A stretch of 64,000 bases of DNA from Candidatus Thiodictyon syntrophicum (GTDB lineage: Bacteria > Pseudomonadota > Gammaproteobacteria > Chromatiales > Chromatiaceae). A program made the translations under genes and the position numbers. Positions 43,848-49,740 of the stretch are shown here, piece by piece. The stretch covers positions 4,923,501 to 4,987,500 of the forward strand of contig NZ_CP020370.1 in assembly GCF_002813775.1 (NCBI RefSeq). Reading direction: 5' to 3'. Position 1 is the stretch's first letter, and every line of letters starts with the position of its first letter. Below the pieces are notes generated by a model, which did not search any database, had not been told where the DNA came from, and was given only the letters and a program-made list of their open reading frames with translations.

Positions 43848-44432
43848 TCAGCGGCGGCGCCGGGACCGGGCGATAACAAACGACCCCTGCACCTCCTTGA
43901 GTTTTGCCGCAGCCACAGGATCGCTGACCTCGCTCGTATAGCCGCGAGCGACCTCTGTGGTCTTGATTGTTTCGTTCGCTACGGGTCCACTTGTTGCCTG
44001 ATCCCAGATCAATTGCACCTCATCGAGAAGTCCCTGTGCACTCGCAACTGGCCCGCGGAGCACGATCTCGCGGCTTTCCTCCAGACTGTAGCGGTACCAG
44101 TTGGCGCTGCCGCAATACCCAATTTCATCGTCAATGACGATCACCTTTGCATGGAGTTTGGGAAGCAGTCTTACGAGGGTGTTCGGGCGCGCCTCAAAAC
44201 AGGCGCGAGCCGCGAACGCGTGCGCTGCGAAATCAGGAGTGGCACCGCTCGGCGGACGCGTTACGATATACAGTGCGGCGGTTTTCGGAAGGATGCCGAG
44301 AACGAATTCGGCGAAGAAACCGTCGACCCAAGGTCCAACGATCCAGACACTGGACTTGGCGCGCTTCAAATCGGCACGCAGAAAGCCCAGTACGTCACCC
44401 GTTCCAAGCGCGCGCCATGTGCTCGATTGCAT
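43848..44432 (-). CDS. Phospholipase D-like protein (single HKD motif)
   Basis: 194 residues. The catalytic motif is LHAKVIVIDDEIGYCGSANW (H-x-K-x4-D-x6-GSxN). With one motif it would work as a dimer, as bacterial PLD-type nucleases do. The N-terminus (LGFLRADLKRAKSSVWIVGP) matches the usual strand before the fold. The start overlaps the 3' end of the DUF1998 half by 38 bases, so the two are tightly linked. In DISARM-type systems drmC is a PLD protein next to helicase and DUF1998 genes. Here it may have a nuclease role in a related system. Confidence 0.85.
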   Translation of the reverse strand: MQSSTWRALGTGDVLGFLRADLKRAKSSVWIVGPWVDGFFAEFVLGILPKTAALYIVTRPPSGATPDFAAHAFAARACFEARPNTLVRLLPKLHAKVIVIDDEIGYCGSANWYRYSLEESREIVLRGPVASAQGLLDEVQLIWDQATSGPVANETIKTTEVARGYTSEVSDPVAAAKLKEVQGSFVIARSRRRR

Positions 44433-45348
44433 CGACGATCTCCTTCGCAGCGATCTCAGAATCGATCCGACACTCTTCAGCGAGGTACCGCCGGAAGGAC
44501 TTGGCTGATTTGCGTCCCTGAGCCTTGACCTGTTTAGCAGCAGCCTTCAATGCCGATGCGACCCGGCCGTCGGTCAGCAATGCCTCGCTCAAGCCGTTTC
44601 CGCCAGGGGTGCCGTCGACGACTCGAAGCTCTCCTGTTTGAGCATCGAGCGTAGCCTGAAGATCGCACTGCGAGCACTCGACCGCATCGCAAAAAAACCC
44701 CTGCAGGAGCGGACCCAGAATCGGCGCCAGAGTATTCCGGGCAGATGCGTCAATTACTCGGGAAACAACCCATTTCCAACCCTTTGTACGATATGAGAAA
44801 TTATGGAGAAAGGGAAAATCGTCGCCGTCCTCCATAGCCTCTACAAACCGTCTGGCAATCTCTGCCAGCGATACAGTCTTCGTCTTGGCTCGCCCGCGTA
44901 GATCGATCTCCTGATAGCCGTCGAACTTCCGGATGAATGTGAAAATCCCAAACGTCAGTGTCCTGTTCGCGGGATAGTCGCAGTCGTTTGGCAGGTCCTT
45001 CGGCTCATCAAGCTTAAAACTGTCGTTCCAGCGACCGCGTGTCGCGACGGTCGGCTCCTCCTTGCTAACTTCAATATACTTTAGCCCTTTCATGTACTTA
45101 CCGAGAACGATCCCGGTCGGGCTGGTCCATGTGGCCAGATCCCAGTTACCGACATATCGCTTGATGCGATAGCTGGCGCCACGATGCCCGAGGTAGACAC
45201 CTTCCGGGTGGGCATCACGGAAAATCGCGATGTCCTCGATAGTCGCTACTACTGTCTTCCAGTCGTTTTCGAGACGCAAGCAGCGCTTACCCTGTGACGC
45301 ACTGGCTAGGGTGTTCAATATCGGACCTATTTCACAAATTATCTTCAT
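44395..45348 (-). CDS. 3' half of an IS-split DUF1998 helicase
   Basis: 317 residues if started at ATG 45348. The first 14 come from the insertion sequence and the next three (ASA) from the duplicated target. The native sequence begins SQGKRCLRLENDWKTVVATI. It contains the wing region (HPEGVYLGHRGASYRIKRYV) and a DUF1998 end with a zinc pair (FFCDAVECSQCDLQATL) and DGTPGGNGLSEALL, as in MrfA-type helicases. The frame is the same as that of the 5' half across the insertion. The IS-borne ATG overlaps the transposase stop (ATGA), so it could still be translated. Conserved C-terminal residues show no decay. Confidence 0.82.
   Translation of the reverse strand: MKIICEIGPILNTLASASQGKRCLRLENDWKTVVATIEDIAIFRDAHPEGVYLGHRGASYRIKRYVGNWDLATWTSPTGIVLGKYMKGLKYIEVSKEEPTVATRGRWNDSFKLDEPKDLPNDCDYPANRTLTFGIFTFIRKFDGYQEIDLRGRAKTKTVSLAEIARRFVEAMEDGDDFPFLHNFSYRTKGWKWVVSRVIDASARNTLAPILGPLLQGFFCDAVECSQCDLQATLDAQTGELRVVDGTPGGNGLSEALLTDGRVASALKAAAKQVKAQGRKSAKSFRRYLAEECRIDSEIAAKEIVDAIEHMARAWNG
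45298..45306. repeat. 9-bp target-site duplication, left copy
   Basis: CGCACTGGC at 45298-45306 directly abuts the IS end and is repeated exactly at 47266-47274. In the gene direction it reads GCCAGTGCG (Ala-Ser-Ala) on both sides. Confidence 0.9.
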
Positions 45349-47265
45349 ACAGTTTTAGTGTTTGATAACGAATCAATGAGAGCATGCCGACGCCGGGCCA
45401 GCATCGACGCACCGATATGCGCTTGCGCCCAGTGCTCGACATCAATCGTACGCACCGATTCCATCGCCTCCCGAATCAACGGAGTCGCCAGGTCGGCGAT
45501 GAAGGCAGGAATCGCAAGCAGCAGCTTGCCGATCTCCTTGAGTGGCCCCCTGGCGGTGAAGCATTTGTATTTCCCGAAGACCGATTCGATGATATCGGAG
45601 GATGCCAGCCAGACATTATCAGTCGGGATCTTGGCGGCTTCCACTGCCACCTTCGCGAGCATCTGTTGGGTAAAGGCCGCCGTGCGTGGGGTGAGCGTTG
45701 ACTGCGGTGGCAGCGTGGCCTGGAGTGATTCCTGGGAGCCCCGCTGGAGGCCCTTGGATTTGAGGTGCGACTGAATCAGCTTGGATTGCGCCATCATTTG
45801 CGCGTAATCCACCAGGTCATCCCGGTAGGACAGTAGCCAGGCAAAGCCGTCAAGGAAGCGGCTGTACCCAGCGTCCGCTTGCTGCCAGAACACATCGTCG
45901 AGCGTATCACTCTCGAGGTCTGAGTGTGTCTGCAGTGCCTGGCAAAAAGCCGCCCGGTCGGGATAGCGAATGCCGACGATGGCCCGCAATGGGTGCGCCC
46001 GGGCGGCGCCGAACCGCGCGCACAGGTGCTCCCATGCCGGCCACTTCAGGACGTATTGCGCGCGGATCGCGCTGAAGTCGCCGCGATCATGGTAGGCGAG
46101 GAGCCGTTGTGCCCACCGCACCTGGACATCCAGATTCATGAAACGCGCCTTGAGGCGCTGCCGAGGCGGCAGCAAGAAGGCCAGATCGGTCTGCTGCAAG
46201 GCTGACCAGGCGTTGCGACAGTGCGCCAGCAAGGACTCCCAGCGCGCGTCCCGGCCCATCTCGGCCTTGAGCAGCGTCGCGATCAGATGAGAAATATCAT
46301 AAGTATAGACGCAGGCAGTGGCGTGCTCCTGAAACAAGGCGATGCCCTTGCGCAGGTCGCTGCCGTGGTCGGCAACGATCTGGACCGGGGGACCGGTGCG
46401 TTGCGCAACGCGCCTGAGCACGTTCGCGACCCACGCCCCCGTGCTGTGTGTGGTGATCTCCACGGCCAGCACCTGCATGGCGCCGTGACCCGGACTGTAA
46501 CCGCTCCGAGCCAGTGCATTCACCGGAATACCCAGGATTACCAGGCACTTGGATGCCCCCAAGGCGATGGTATGATCAGCGACGTAGATCCAATCCGTGC
46601 GCCATTCCGGTTGGCGATTGAGGATCGCGAGACCGCAGCGATAGATCCAGTTCAGCACCGTGGTGTGGGCTGGCGCCGCCACCGGGAATGTCGCGCCGAA
46701 CAGATTCAAGACCCGCGCCACGCCGCGACTGCCAAGCCCCGCGTGCAGATACAGCCGCATGGTCAACTGCATGACCATGACCGAATAGTGATGGCCGACC
46801 GGCGGGGACAGCGCAAGCTGTGGTGGCTCATCCACTGGTTCGTCAGCCGCCGGCGCCGCGGCCTCTTCGGCGCCCGTTCGCCCACGCTCCGCCTTTAGCG
46901 CACGCGCCTTCCACTGCGCGCGGCTGTGCTCCAGATCCCGAATCTTGACCTCCGCGGCCCGCAGGCGCTGCTGCCGCTCCAACGCTTTCGCCTTCCAGGC
47001 ATCACGTGACCGCTGGAACAGGTTGGCCAGACGGCTCACTGGGCTCTTGAATGCGTTCATCACGTCGTGCGCGCTCCGGCAAGGCGGTCAGATCACCGCG
47101 CCAGTAGGCTGGCCAACCGTTCGCCGTTTGTCAAGGGCTGGGCATGAGCTAGTGTCGCACCGTCATCGTACCCACCCGAGCACAGAACCGACAGCCGGGC
47201 CTTCCCGGCAACACGCTTCTTGCATGGGCTTTTCAGCGCCTTTTTGGGTCAGATTGAACATCCTA
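45307..47265 (-). mobile_element. Insertion sequence (1,959 bp) with terminal inverted repeats
   Basis: The left end is TAGGGTGTTCAATATCGGAC and the right end, read inward on the minus strand, TAGGATGTTCAATCTGACCC. TAGG-TGTTCAAT is shared, and both begin exactly at the target duplication. One transposase gene fills it. Removal of the element and one target copy restores a continuous helicase frame. I cannot place it in an ISfinder family with confidence. A lone copy of the end is at 62884-62904. Confidence 0.92.
45345..47063 (-). CDS. DDE-type transposase of the insertion sequence
   Basis: 572 residues. A basic coiled-coil N-terminus (RDAWKAKALERQQRLRAAEV, IRDLEHSRAQWKARALKAE) leads to an RNase H-like core. 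Candidate acids are in WIYVADHTIALG, QIVADHGSDLRKG and SSDIIESVFGKYK, giving D-D-E order. The first half includes a helix-turn-helix-like segment (RLYLHAGLGSRGVARVLNLF). The stop TGA overlaps the ATG of the downstream helicase half. The gene looks intact, so the element may still move. The family is uncertain. Confidence 0.85.
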   Translation of the reverse strand: MMNAFKSPVSRLANLFQRSRDAWKAKALERQQRLRAAEVKIRDLEHSRAQWKARALKAERGRTGAEEAAAPAADEPVDEPPQLALSPPVGHHYSVMVMQLTMRLYLHAGLGSRGVARVLNLFGATFPVAAPAHTTVLNWIYRCGLAILNRQPEWRTDWIYVADHTIALGASKCLVILGIPVNALARSGYSPGHGAMQVLAVEITTHSTGAWVANVLRRVAQRTGPPVQIVADHGSDLRKGIALFQEHATACVYTYDISHLIATLLKAEMGRDARWESLLAHCRNAWSALQQTDLAFLLPPRQRLKARFMNLDVQVRWAQRLLAYHDRGDFSAIRAQYVLKWPAWEHLCARFGAARAHPLRAIVGIRYPDRAAFCQALQTHSDLESDTLDDVFWQQADAGYSRFLDGFAWLLSYRDDLVDYAQMMAQSKLIQSHLKSKGLQRGSQESLQATLPPQSTLTPRTAAFTQQMLAKVAVEAAKIPTDNVWLASSDIIESVFGKYKCFTARGPLKEIGKLLLAIPAFIADLATPLIREAMESVRTIDVEHWAQAHIGASMLARRRHALIDSLSNTKTV

Positions 47266-48927
47266 CGCACTGGCCCGGAAGCCTTTGTAATACCAAGCAC
47301 CATCGTCGAGATCGACAACGTCGCCTAGGACCTCATCACAACGCTGTTTCAACTCACGGATATCTGGCGCCCACTGGAAGTAGCGTTCCAGTGCAACATT
47401 GAAGTCGTCCCACGTTGCTTGCCGCATCTTAATACGCCAACGCCACTCGTCAAACGCCGCAGACATTGCACGCAGGCGCACGACTTCAAGGTGTAATGGC
47501 AATGGCAGCGGTTTCATTTCATCGACGGCGAAGGTCGCTAGCGGCTCCTCGATCAGGCGCTCGTCACTCGGTGAATAGCCGAGACAGAGGATTGCAAGTC
47601 CGGGACGATCCGACGAGCGGCCGACACGGCCAAGCCGTTGAATCAGGTCGGACCGACGCGGAGGTAAATCGTCCATCAGCACCACGTCGAGCGTCGGGAG
47701 GTCTACTCCCAGTTCAAGTGCGCTGGTTCCAACGATGATTTTTGGATTTCCGTCTTCTTTGAACAGATCGTCTTCAACCTTGCGTCGCTCCTTCGGCGGC
47801 AAATCACCGTCATAAGCGATGACGTCCCTGCCACTGAGGGCGCGGTGGAGATCCTCGCGTAACCGATGGCCGACGAATTTGCTCTGCACGAAACACAGCG
47901 CGTTTGCCTCTTGGCCGAGATGATCGGAGTTCCCAAGCACTTCCCGCGCGGCGAGCGGCGCGGGGTCGGGCTGCATGAGGAGCACATACCTGCGCAGCAA
48001 CCCGGGTTTAGCGGGCGCCATAAGCAACGCCGGCACGTCCAGCGCGCGGACGAGAGATGCCTTGGCGGCTCCCCGGTCGTCGACTTCCAGAAAGGATGAG
48101 GCCGGTTCACCGGTGAGGGATTCGGCAAACGCGGCGGCCCCAGCCAAGGTTGCCGATGCGAGAAAAAAGGCGGGATGATCGCTGCCGAGCATGTCCATCG
48201 AGAGTCGCATACGATCGATCATGGCCCGAACACTGGCCCCGGCCAGTCCGTGCCAGGAATGCGCCTCGTCCACGACAATACCGGTCAGGCACGACAGGAA
48301 ATCGGCTTCTTTGTCCCGCATCAAGCTCCAATGAACCTTATCGAGCGTGCTTACCCTGATGCGCGCCTGGGTAAATGCCGGATGCTTTGCATGGGCCTCC
48401 ATATAATTGCACCCGCTTGTTCCGTACCATACGGACCACGGAATGCCAACACCGCCGAGCGCGATAGTCCCGGCGAAACAGACGCCCTCCAACCCATCGT
48501 ACCGCACGCGGCTCGTGGGCTCGGACATCCTTGCCAAACGATTCGCCTGGCCCCATAAGAGTGCCTGGGTCGGGAAGGTTGCGATAGCCGTGGCATCCCC
48601 GTCGCGCGACAAGATCTCAAAGACCCAGGCCCAGAATGCCAGGCTCTTCCCCGAGCCCGTCGCGGTCGTCATGACCACGTTCGGGATCGTCCCTGCCCTG
48701 AGGGCCGCGATGACCTGTGCCTGGTGTTCGTACAGGCCACTCGTGGCGACGCGCGGCTCGTAGGCTTTGAGAAATCCGCGAAGCGACTGCCCCGGCTTGG
48801 CCGTGACGAGACTCACCAATTTTGGGACCGGCGTCGTAAGGCATACCGCCTGCTCATGCAGGCGATCACCGTACTTGGCAATCATCATTTCGGCCACGTA
48901 GGCGGCGGGGGGTGACAACTTCGTCAT
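47263..48927 (-). CDS. 5' half of an IS-split MrfA-like DUF1998 helicase
   Basis: 554 residues from ATG 48927 (MTKLSPPAAYVAEMMIAKYG), chosen for its GGAGA site. It is an SF2 helicase: Walker A TTATGSGKSLAFWAWVF, DEAH box IVVDEAHSWHGL, SAT-like FLASATL, then VGTSALELGVDLPTLDVVLM and QRLGRVGRSSDRPG. The stop is the first three bases of the insertion sequence. The intact gene would encode about 854 residues ending in DUF1998. Relatives include MrfA (mitomycin repair) and DISARM DrmA/DrmB. It lies 26 bases after vapC and was followed by the PLD gene. The native frame upstream of the insertion is undamaged. Confidence 0.87.
   Translation of the reverse strand: MTKLSPPAAYVAEMMIAKYGDRLHEQAVCLTTPVPKLVSLVTAKPGQSLRGFLKAYEPRVATSGLYEHQAQVIAALRAGTIPNVVMTTATGSGKSLAFWAWVFEILSRDGDATAIATFPTQALLWGQANRLARMSEPTSRVRYDGLEGVCFAGTIALGGVGIPWSVWYGTSGCNYMEAHAKHPAFTQARIRVSTLDKVHWSLMRDKEADFLSCLTGIVVDEAHSWHGLAGASVRAMIDRMRLSMDMLGSDHPAFFLASATLAGAAAFAESLTGEPASSFLEVDDRGAAKASLVRALDVPALLMAPAKPGLLRRYVLLMQPDPAPLAAREVLGNSDHLGQEANALCFVQSKFVGHRLREDLHRALSGRDVIAYDGDLPPKERRKVEDDLFKEDGNPKIIVGTSALELGVDLPTLDVVLMDDLPPRRSDLIQRLGRVGRSSDRPGLAILCLGYSPSDERLIEEPLATFAVDEMKPLPLPLHLEVVRLRAMSAAFDEWRWRIKMRQATWDDFNVALERYFQWAPDIRELKQRCDEVLGDVVDLDDGAWYYKGFRASA
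47266..47274. repeat. 9-bp target-site duplication, right copy
   Basis: CGCACTGGC, identical to 45298-45306. Confidence 0.9.
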
Positions 48928-48953
48928 GCGTTTCTCCCTGTGTGGCCTCGGCG

Positions 48954-49388
48954 CTACCTGCTGTCGCGTACCGGGGTAAGATCGTCTAACCAATTCTCCA
49001 CCCGCAATCTGGAAACCCGCGTGAACTCGTCCACATTGTCGGTAACGAGGGTGAGCCCCAGGTCCAGTGCGTGTGCGGCAATCGGCAGGTCGTTGGGTCC
49101 GATGGGCGTCCCGGCTCGCTCCAACTGAAGGCGGGACTGGGCATAGGTCTCATCGACCCCGGCCTCCAGGGGCAGGACGGGCAGTGATGCCAGCAGTTCA
49201 TCGACCTTCCGGGTGAGCACGCTGGAACCGAGCTTGCGGGCACCGAAGCACAGTTCCGCGGCGACGACGATGCTGGTGCAGACGGTGCCGTAACCACGCC
49301 GGGCGAGCATCGCGGCGACCGGCCCTTGGGGTTGGCGGATCAGCGCGGACAGGATGTTGGTGTCGAGGAGGTAGCGCAGCCCGTCCAT
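48954..49388 (-). CDS. vapC: VapC-type PIN-domain RNase toxin
   Basis: 144 residues. The four PIN acids are visible in YLLDTNILSAL (Asp), the VVAAELCFGARKL region (Glu), and PNDLPIAAHALDLGLTLVTD (Asp, Asp). VapC toxins cut initiator tRNA or rRNA under VapB control. It starts three bases after the vapB stop and is followed 26 bases later by the helicase gene on the same strand. The toxin-antitoxin pair may thus head the helicase operon. Confidence 0.92.
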   Translation of the reverse strand: MDGLRYLLDTNILSALIRQPQGPVAAMLARRGYGTVCTSIVVAAELCFGARKLGSSVLTRKVDELLASLPVLPLEAGVDETYAQSRLQLERAGTPIGPNDLPIAAHALDLGLTLVTDNVDEFTRVSRLRVENWLDDLTPVRDSR

Positions 49389-49391
49389 GGC

Positions 49392-49634
49392 TTAGAGGCG
49401 GATGTCGTCCAGGGGCACCAGACCTTGATCCACGTCGGGGAAGGGCTCATCGAGCGGCTCCCATCCGGCAAGGAGGCTTGCGAGGTCAGGCCGGCGCTTC
49501 ACCGGTTCGACCATCAGACACTTGCCGTCCCTGCGGATAGTGGCCTCGTCCGCGTCGAGTTCGAGTTCGCGCGGGATGCGAAGTGCTTGATTGCGTCCGT
49601 TGCGAAACAGGCGGACGTGGCGTTCAGGCTGCAT
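49392..49634 (-). CDS. vapB: VapB-type antitoxin
   Basis: 80 residues from ATG 49634 (MQPERHVRLFRNGRNQALRI). The N-terminus is an AbrB/SpoVT swapped-hairpin DNA-binding domain (FRNGRNQALRIPRELEL, DGKCLMVEPV). The acidic C-terminus (DEPFPDVDQGLVPLDDIRL) should wrap VapC. It is the first gene of the group and is expected to repress it. About 400 bases upstream contain no gene on this strand. Confidence 0.9.
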   Translation of the reverse strand: MQPERHVRLFRNGRNQALRIPRELELDADEATIRRDGKCLMVEPVKRRPDLASLLAGWEPLDEPFPDVDQGLVPLDDIRL

Positions 49635-49740
49635 GGGACAGGGCTCCAGGCAATGACCGACACGCAAGCATAGGCCAAATTGTCAGGCGACGCGAGACGG
49701 CTCTGATCACGGCAAGAGCCGGCCAATAGGACGTGCTTGT

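Follow-up and report, generated by a model that had tools for sequence, protein, structure and literature searches.

Helicases of the YprA/MrfA type, in the broad sense, combine a superfamily 2 (SF2) core with an OB-CON-DUF1998 module. In DISARM, and sporadically in other lineages, this module is reported to be encoded by a gene of its own (Bell et al., PMC12458937), and in the account of the DISARM complex residues 1296-1319 of DrmA form an arm that wraps DrmB (PMC9142583). In Dpd a fused YprA-type helicase is found together with a PLD nuclease, in the DpdJ/DpdK/DpdF module. Here we analyze a helicase gene of this type in a 64,000 nucleotide stretch of DNA, called the window below, from Candidatus Thiodictyon syntrophicum (contig NZ_CP020370.1, positions 4,923,501 to 4,987,500; features are given in window positions). 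Strain Cad16T ("Thiodictyon syntrophicum") is described as a purple sulfur bacterium of Lake Cadagno with replicons of 6,837,296, 484,824 and 416,864 bp (PMC5944118). The gene lies on the minus strand and is interrupted by an insertion sequence (IS). The most likely explanation, which we hold with good confidence, is a recent knockout by this IS of an accessory and probably anti-phage helicase whose gene shares an operon with that of a PLD nuclease. The IS entered the gene in phase 0 at the joint between core and module, and both half-frames are intact. The core would then be made without its module, the module would appear at most in trace amounts through re-initiation after rare translation of the transposase, and the helicase would be functionally off while the PLD gene is still preceded by a ribosome-binding site of its own. 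The in-frame ATG at the exit of the IS would be a by-product of the terminal repeat of the IS and the phase-0 landing.

The geometry described in an earlier sequence-only reading of the window was reproduced base for base. The IS is 1,959 bp long (45307..47265), has its transposase-coding strand on the strand of the helicase (minus; a sense insertion) and is flanked by 9-bp target duplications CGCACTGGC at 45298..45306 and 47266..47274. Its first bases, TAG at 47263-47265, are in the helicase frame and terminate the helicase half (47263..48927, minus strand, 554 codons), which contains RecA1/RecA2 and the part that follows them (Pfam DEAD 4.4e-15, Helicase_C 5.4e-18). At the other end the TGA stop of the 572 aa transposase (45345..47063, minus strand) overlaps an ATG at 45348-45346 in the form ATGA, from which 14 IS codons lead in frame into host sequence as far as 44395. 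The resulting C-terminal half, with an OB-CON-DUF1998-type module, has 317 codons (44395..45348, minus strand) and gives a weak match to Pfam MZB (DUF1998; E 0.046, 14.9 against a cut-off of 24.2 bits). No host codon is lost, as the 9-bp duplication puts Ala-Ser-Ala on each half, and when the flanks were joined by script with the IS and one target copy removed they gave the single frame of 854 codons that had been proposed. The PLD nuclease gene (43848..44432, minus strand; Pfam PLDc_2 8.2e-08, which passes the cut-off) begins before the C-terminal half has ended, and the helicase and PLD genes would form one operon.

Comparison with an uninterrupted orthologue had been suggested, and three full-length orthologues were found, in genome G396 (L017, 61-64% identity), in a Rhodoferax metagenome-assembled genome (MAG; L067) and in a Planctomycetota MAG (L068). 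All three are uninterrupted single frames with the residues FR(V/A)SASQGK at the cut site, thus the fused form is ancestral. The insertion is also young. The window IS is identical to at least six other copies in the genome, and 14 of the 15 further matches are 93-94% identical (40 of the 92 candidates were scored for these counts), which points to recent activity of the IS. Compared over six pairs, both halves gave ratios of non-synonymous to synonymous differences (pN/pS) of 0.30-0.38, with the window not unusual, and the estimated synonymous divergence (dS) exceeded 1.4 or was undefined each time. Since synonymous sites are at or near saturation and the search turned up no sister strain that carries the gene, selection after the insertion cannot be read from these values. 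The intact half-frames likewise argue neither way because the insertion is too recent for visible decay.

Structural modeling helped to place the cut. The C-terminal half alone, with its IS codons included, was predicted by AlphaFold2 as one module with a mean predicted local distance difference test (pLDDT) score of 74, host sequence starting at residue 15. Residues 13-312 of this model match MrfA 489-749 with Z 14.5 and a root-mean-square deviation (rmsd) of 5.8 over 245 aligned residues. Residues 1-310 match DrmB 5-617 (7S9V_B) with Z 8.2, rmsd 4.6, 256 aligned residues and 8% identity. A Z in this range is modest, and the unrelated structures ranked next score 7.3. Foldseek alone had MrfA in its first 50 rows and not DrmB, and the DrmB match comes from a second structural comparison. 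A model of the full fused orthologue, with a mean pLDDT of 51, was left unused. On these models the IS cut falls where the helicase core gives way to the OB-CON-DUF1998 module.

Both the Pfam core matches and the fold match to MrfA place the protein in the broad YprA/MrfA-type family of an SF2 core plus OB-CON-DUF1998 module. By sequence the best solved relative is also MrfA/YprA (E 2.9e-25; PDB 6ZNP, 6ZNS, 6ZNQ), and TIGR03817 matches the G396 orthologue at E 2.1e-41, but with 142 bits against a model cut-off of 874. The order of domains is common to this helicase and MrfA. The differences are that the C-terminal four-cysteine zinc cluster of MrfA is not kept here (two Cys are invariant in four aligned C-terminal halves), that a PLD gene follows in the window, in G396 and in the Rhodoferax locus instead of the MrfB exonuclease, that PIN and MazE-like genes precede the helicase in the window, and that the helicase here is split by an IS. 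Dpd offers other likenesses: a fused helicase of the YprA type accompanied by a PLD nuclease, a DpdF-like helicase that follows in the Rhodoferax locus (E 3.7e-88), and a lost zinc cluster, as Bell et al. describe for Dpd (PMC12458937). However, the G396 proteins reach only 49.4 bits with the DpdJ model against 800 and 18 with DpdK against 100, and the 854-887 codons found here compare with 1,482 positions in the DpdJ model.

The echo of the separate drmA and drmB genes of DISARM, which had been raised from the sequence alone, stood in one part and fell in others. In position the analogy is a good one, as the modeled cut is at the same joint as the DrmA/DrmB gene boundary. The layout is also alike: the helicase and the OB-CON-DUF1998 module are in separate frames, and a PLD gene lies beside them. 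However, the intact G396 orthologue scores 16.1 bits with the DrmA model NF038325 (cut-off 950), the PLD protein of the window scores 16.6 bits with the DrmC model NF038319 (cut-off 133), and the split exists here only through a recent IS, with three of three orthologues fused. The PADLOC DrmA match to the window helicase half (7.2e-11) is of partial length and ranks below other helicase families. Additionally, nothing of the helicase half extends beyond the joint, which leaves no room for an arm like that of DrmA.

Whether the in-frame stop and start are special can be judged from the other copies of this IS. The TAG and the ATG are a single event, since the 9-bp duplication is divisible by three, and a sense insertion gains both in one of three phases. 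Duplications of 9 bp flank all 17 complete copies examined in the genome. Five of these 17 lie in sense orientation in genes with a Pfam match, and two of the five are in phase 0, the helicase of the window and the IstB gene of an IS21-type element (L037, G000:C1:3989216-3995175). An HsdR-like gene with a 94% IS copy (L022, G000:C1:4383647-4389606) and a PAS histidine kinase gene (L035) are in phase 1, and an IS110 transposase gene (L023) is in phase 2. Two in five is in line with chance. As a control on phase, 20 more frame pieces from 14 further IS sites were scanned. At L026 and L032, which have no Pfam match, the longest frame spanning the IS is sense and phase 0, and the frame pieces scanned at L033, L034, L029 and L021 gave no Pfam match. 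A selected split of the IstB gene is implausible. This site is therefore a natural control, where the stop-and-restart arises without a likely benefit, and it indicates that the arrangement itself is not special. The presence of the IS exceeds chance expectation; the in-frame stop and start does not.

The exit ATG can be traced to the ends of the IS. The terminal inverted repeats are imperfect (TAGGATGTTCAAT and TAGGGTGTTCAAT, matching at 12 of 13 positions) and form a two-part repeat with outer TAGGNNGTTCAAT and inner TTCATGCAG. At the transposase-stop end the inner arm TTCATACAG (45344..45352, plus strand) has a complement that contains the exit ATG (45346-45348), and the matching arm CCCATGCAA is at equal distance from the tip at the non-coding end (47220..47228, minus strand). 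In all eight related elements with both ends read, AT[AG]C occupies nucleotides 41-44 from the coding-side tip and ATGC nucleotides 41-44 from the non-coding tip. This ATGC/ATAC block was read by eye on the printed ends of all eight; the best inner match found by script was equidistant from the tips in six of them, and another match was chosen for the window IS and for L045. The block is kept in L045, though its transposase frame, read by eye, ends earlier, and in L062, which matches the IS over the last 50 nucleotides only. Among 13 right ends compared, which include two identical and two nearly identical ones, the ATG is 42 nucleotides from the tip and codon-aligned with it in every case; the exit frame runs on without a stop in 11 of them, the two exceptions being L039 and L062. 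The exit codons vary freely. Since the block stands at both tips, the conserved ATG is explained as the coding-side arm of the terminal repeat of the IS itself.

Signals for expression differ along the operon. Shine-Dalgarno pairing is -7.1 kcal/mol at the helicase start (ATG 48927) and again -7.1 kcal/mol at the PLD start. The exit ATG has no Shine-Dalgarno sequence (+3.4 kcal/mol, where the median of 788 minus-strand ATGs is -3.2). No sigma-70-like site was found near the exit end of the IS; the region 44300-49100 holds one, at 47453-47426, where shuffled sequences hold 1.2. Production of the C-terminal half would need translation of the transposase and re-initiation at the ATGA. Re-initiation at an overlapping ATGA is possible in principle, as in coupled genes.

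There are points that weigh against a simple knockout and they should not be passed over. The modeled cut falls almost exactly at the sole joint for which a natural two-gene form exists, that of DISARM, no residue was lost and both half-frames are open. When insertions hit the gene at random, about 0.2% are expected to be in sense, in phase 0 and within five codons of the domain joint, although this is an after-the-fact figure. The position of the cut is also the strongest ground for the first alternative, in which one IS event would have produced a two-subunit, DISARM-like helicase, with the TAG-ended core and a transposase-coupled module both made and assembled, the module perhaps bound to the core in the way that DrmB is bound to DrmA. 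The ATGA overlap with its open exit frame would provide the coupling, the module is modeled at a mean pLDDT of 74 when alone, and the separate-gene modules described by Bell et al. in DISARM and other lineages (PMC12458937) are a precedent. Despite this we regard it as unlikely. The exit ATG has no Shine-Dalgarno sequence and its use would depend on translation of the transposase, the helicase half has nothing like the arm by which DrmA is described to hold DrmB (PMC9142583), and the phase is a one in three event that is also seen in the IstB gene. The proposal that the insertion turned one protein into two expressed subunits is thus not supported, given the missing ribosome-binding site, an ATG explained by the terminal repeat and the odds of the phase.

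A second alternative, quite improbable in our judgment, is that the C-terminal half is not made, while the helicase half or the PLD nuclease is still produced on its own and retains some activity. The strong Shine-Dalgarno sequences at both starts and the complete DEAD and Helicase_C domains of the helicase half are in its favor, but the module of MrfA is described as a canopy that traps DNA (PMC12458937) and DISARM defense is reported to need formation of the DrmAB dimer (PMC9142583). That the IS family was selected for downstream readthrough, its ATGA overlap and open exit frame lowering the cost of insertion, is extremely doubtful: the codon-aligned ATG of all the right ends and the open frame of most would fit, but the same block lies on the non-coding end, the exit codons are free to vary, L039 and L062 have stops and the L045 transposase ends early.

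If the knockout is accepted, the locus is an ordinary case of an IS disabling an accessory defense-type gene. If the halves do work, it would be a natural snapshot of a fused helicase becoming separate, DrmA/DrmB-like subunits in one event. A functional split can be tested with public proteome data, and for Cad16T such a dataset is listed as PXD010641 (PMC6413534); the tryptic peptide across the IS-host junction of the C-terminal half would be IICEIGPILNTLASASQGK. In the literature on IS and translational coupling and on gene fission and IS we found no like case, which does not prove that there is none.

The work also brings to light a small and rare module of a YprA helicase and a PLD nuclease, with three close orthologues. 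Among 210 genomes of the order, the C-terminal half was found in none besides its own. A sample of 398 genomes from the phylum gave 2 (its own counted), and among 297 genomes of the order of G396 the whole orthologue occurs in G396 only (E<=1e-60). A first scan of genome contigs for relatives gave 54 stretches with none confirmed. A second gave 75 stretches and seven relatives, two close and five haloarchaeal; the latter are in long single frames and were excluded from the count of orthologues. No relative of the C-terminal half was found in plasmids, none was confirmed among 148 pattern stretches in viral contigs, and no orthologue was found in phages. The helicase half matched 26 plasmid records, all below 60% identity and none with 80% coverage. 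The PLD gene overlaps the helicase end in the window, in G396 and in the Rhodoferax locus, and none was seen, reading by eye, after the Planctomycetota helicase. The richest context is that of the Rhodoferax MAG (L067:293-8742), with an IetA-like AAA protein, an unmatched 155-aa protein, the fused helicase, PLD, the DpdF-like helicase and a small exonuclease-like gene (Rv2179c-like, below cut-off). This row is a possible, uncharacterized YprA-PLD-DpdF defense module.

The anti-phage role of the helicase is probable by analogy with its family and neighborhood. Immediately upstream in the window is a PIN-domain gene (48954-49667, 7.4e-18), which together with a weakly matching MazE-like antitoxin gene, also upstream (E 0.0012, below cut-off), makes a VapBC-type pair. 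The sister species G147 has a nitroreductase gene with 94% identity to that of the window, and beside this gene and the same antitoxin gene it carries BrxC/PglY and HEC-01A/B-like genes (L098, G147:C21:6000-16000); the nitroreductase side of this site is on one contig and the plsY side on another. Different defense genes at the same site in a sister species indicate that the cargo there is accessory, and this suggests a variable, defense-rich hot spot. In the seven other genomes of the genus the C-terminal half was not found as protein, and helicase or PLD DNA was not among the matches listed (up to 37 candidates scored per genome).

The transposase of the IS matches no Pfam family at E<=1 and gives a weak match to NCBIfam IS6 (E 0.0062, 16.3 bits against a cut-off of 125). 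Of 194 genomes in the family, 34 (its own included) hold DNA relatives, many as short pieces only. Protein relatives are in eight plasmid records, and the seven cyanobacterial ones among them have about 30-45% identity. Defense-type loci elsewhere in the genome hold further copies of the IS. An identical copy is within an array of clustered regularly interspaced short palindromic repeats (CRISPR; L036, G000:C1:1879656-1885614), with 27 exact repeats on each side within the locus. The published arrays CRR1 and CRR2 (PMC5944118) have this repeat and flank the IS, and they look like a single array split by it. A 94% copy interrupts, in antisense, a cas7 gene (L027, G000:C1:4619664-4625623; Pfam Cas_Cas7 9.2e-86) a few kb from the type I-C array published as CRR3 (PMC5944118), and the copy at L022 interrupts the HsdR-like gene of type I restriction. 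With the helicase, 4 of the 17 complete copies are in loci of this kind, as a plain count.

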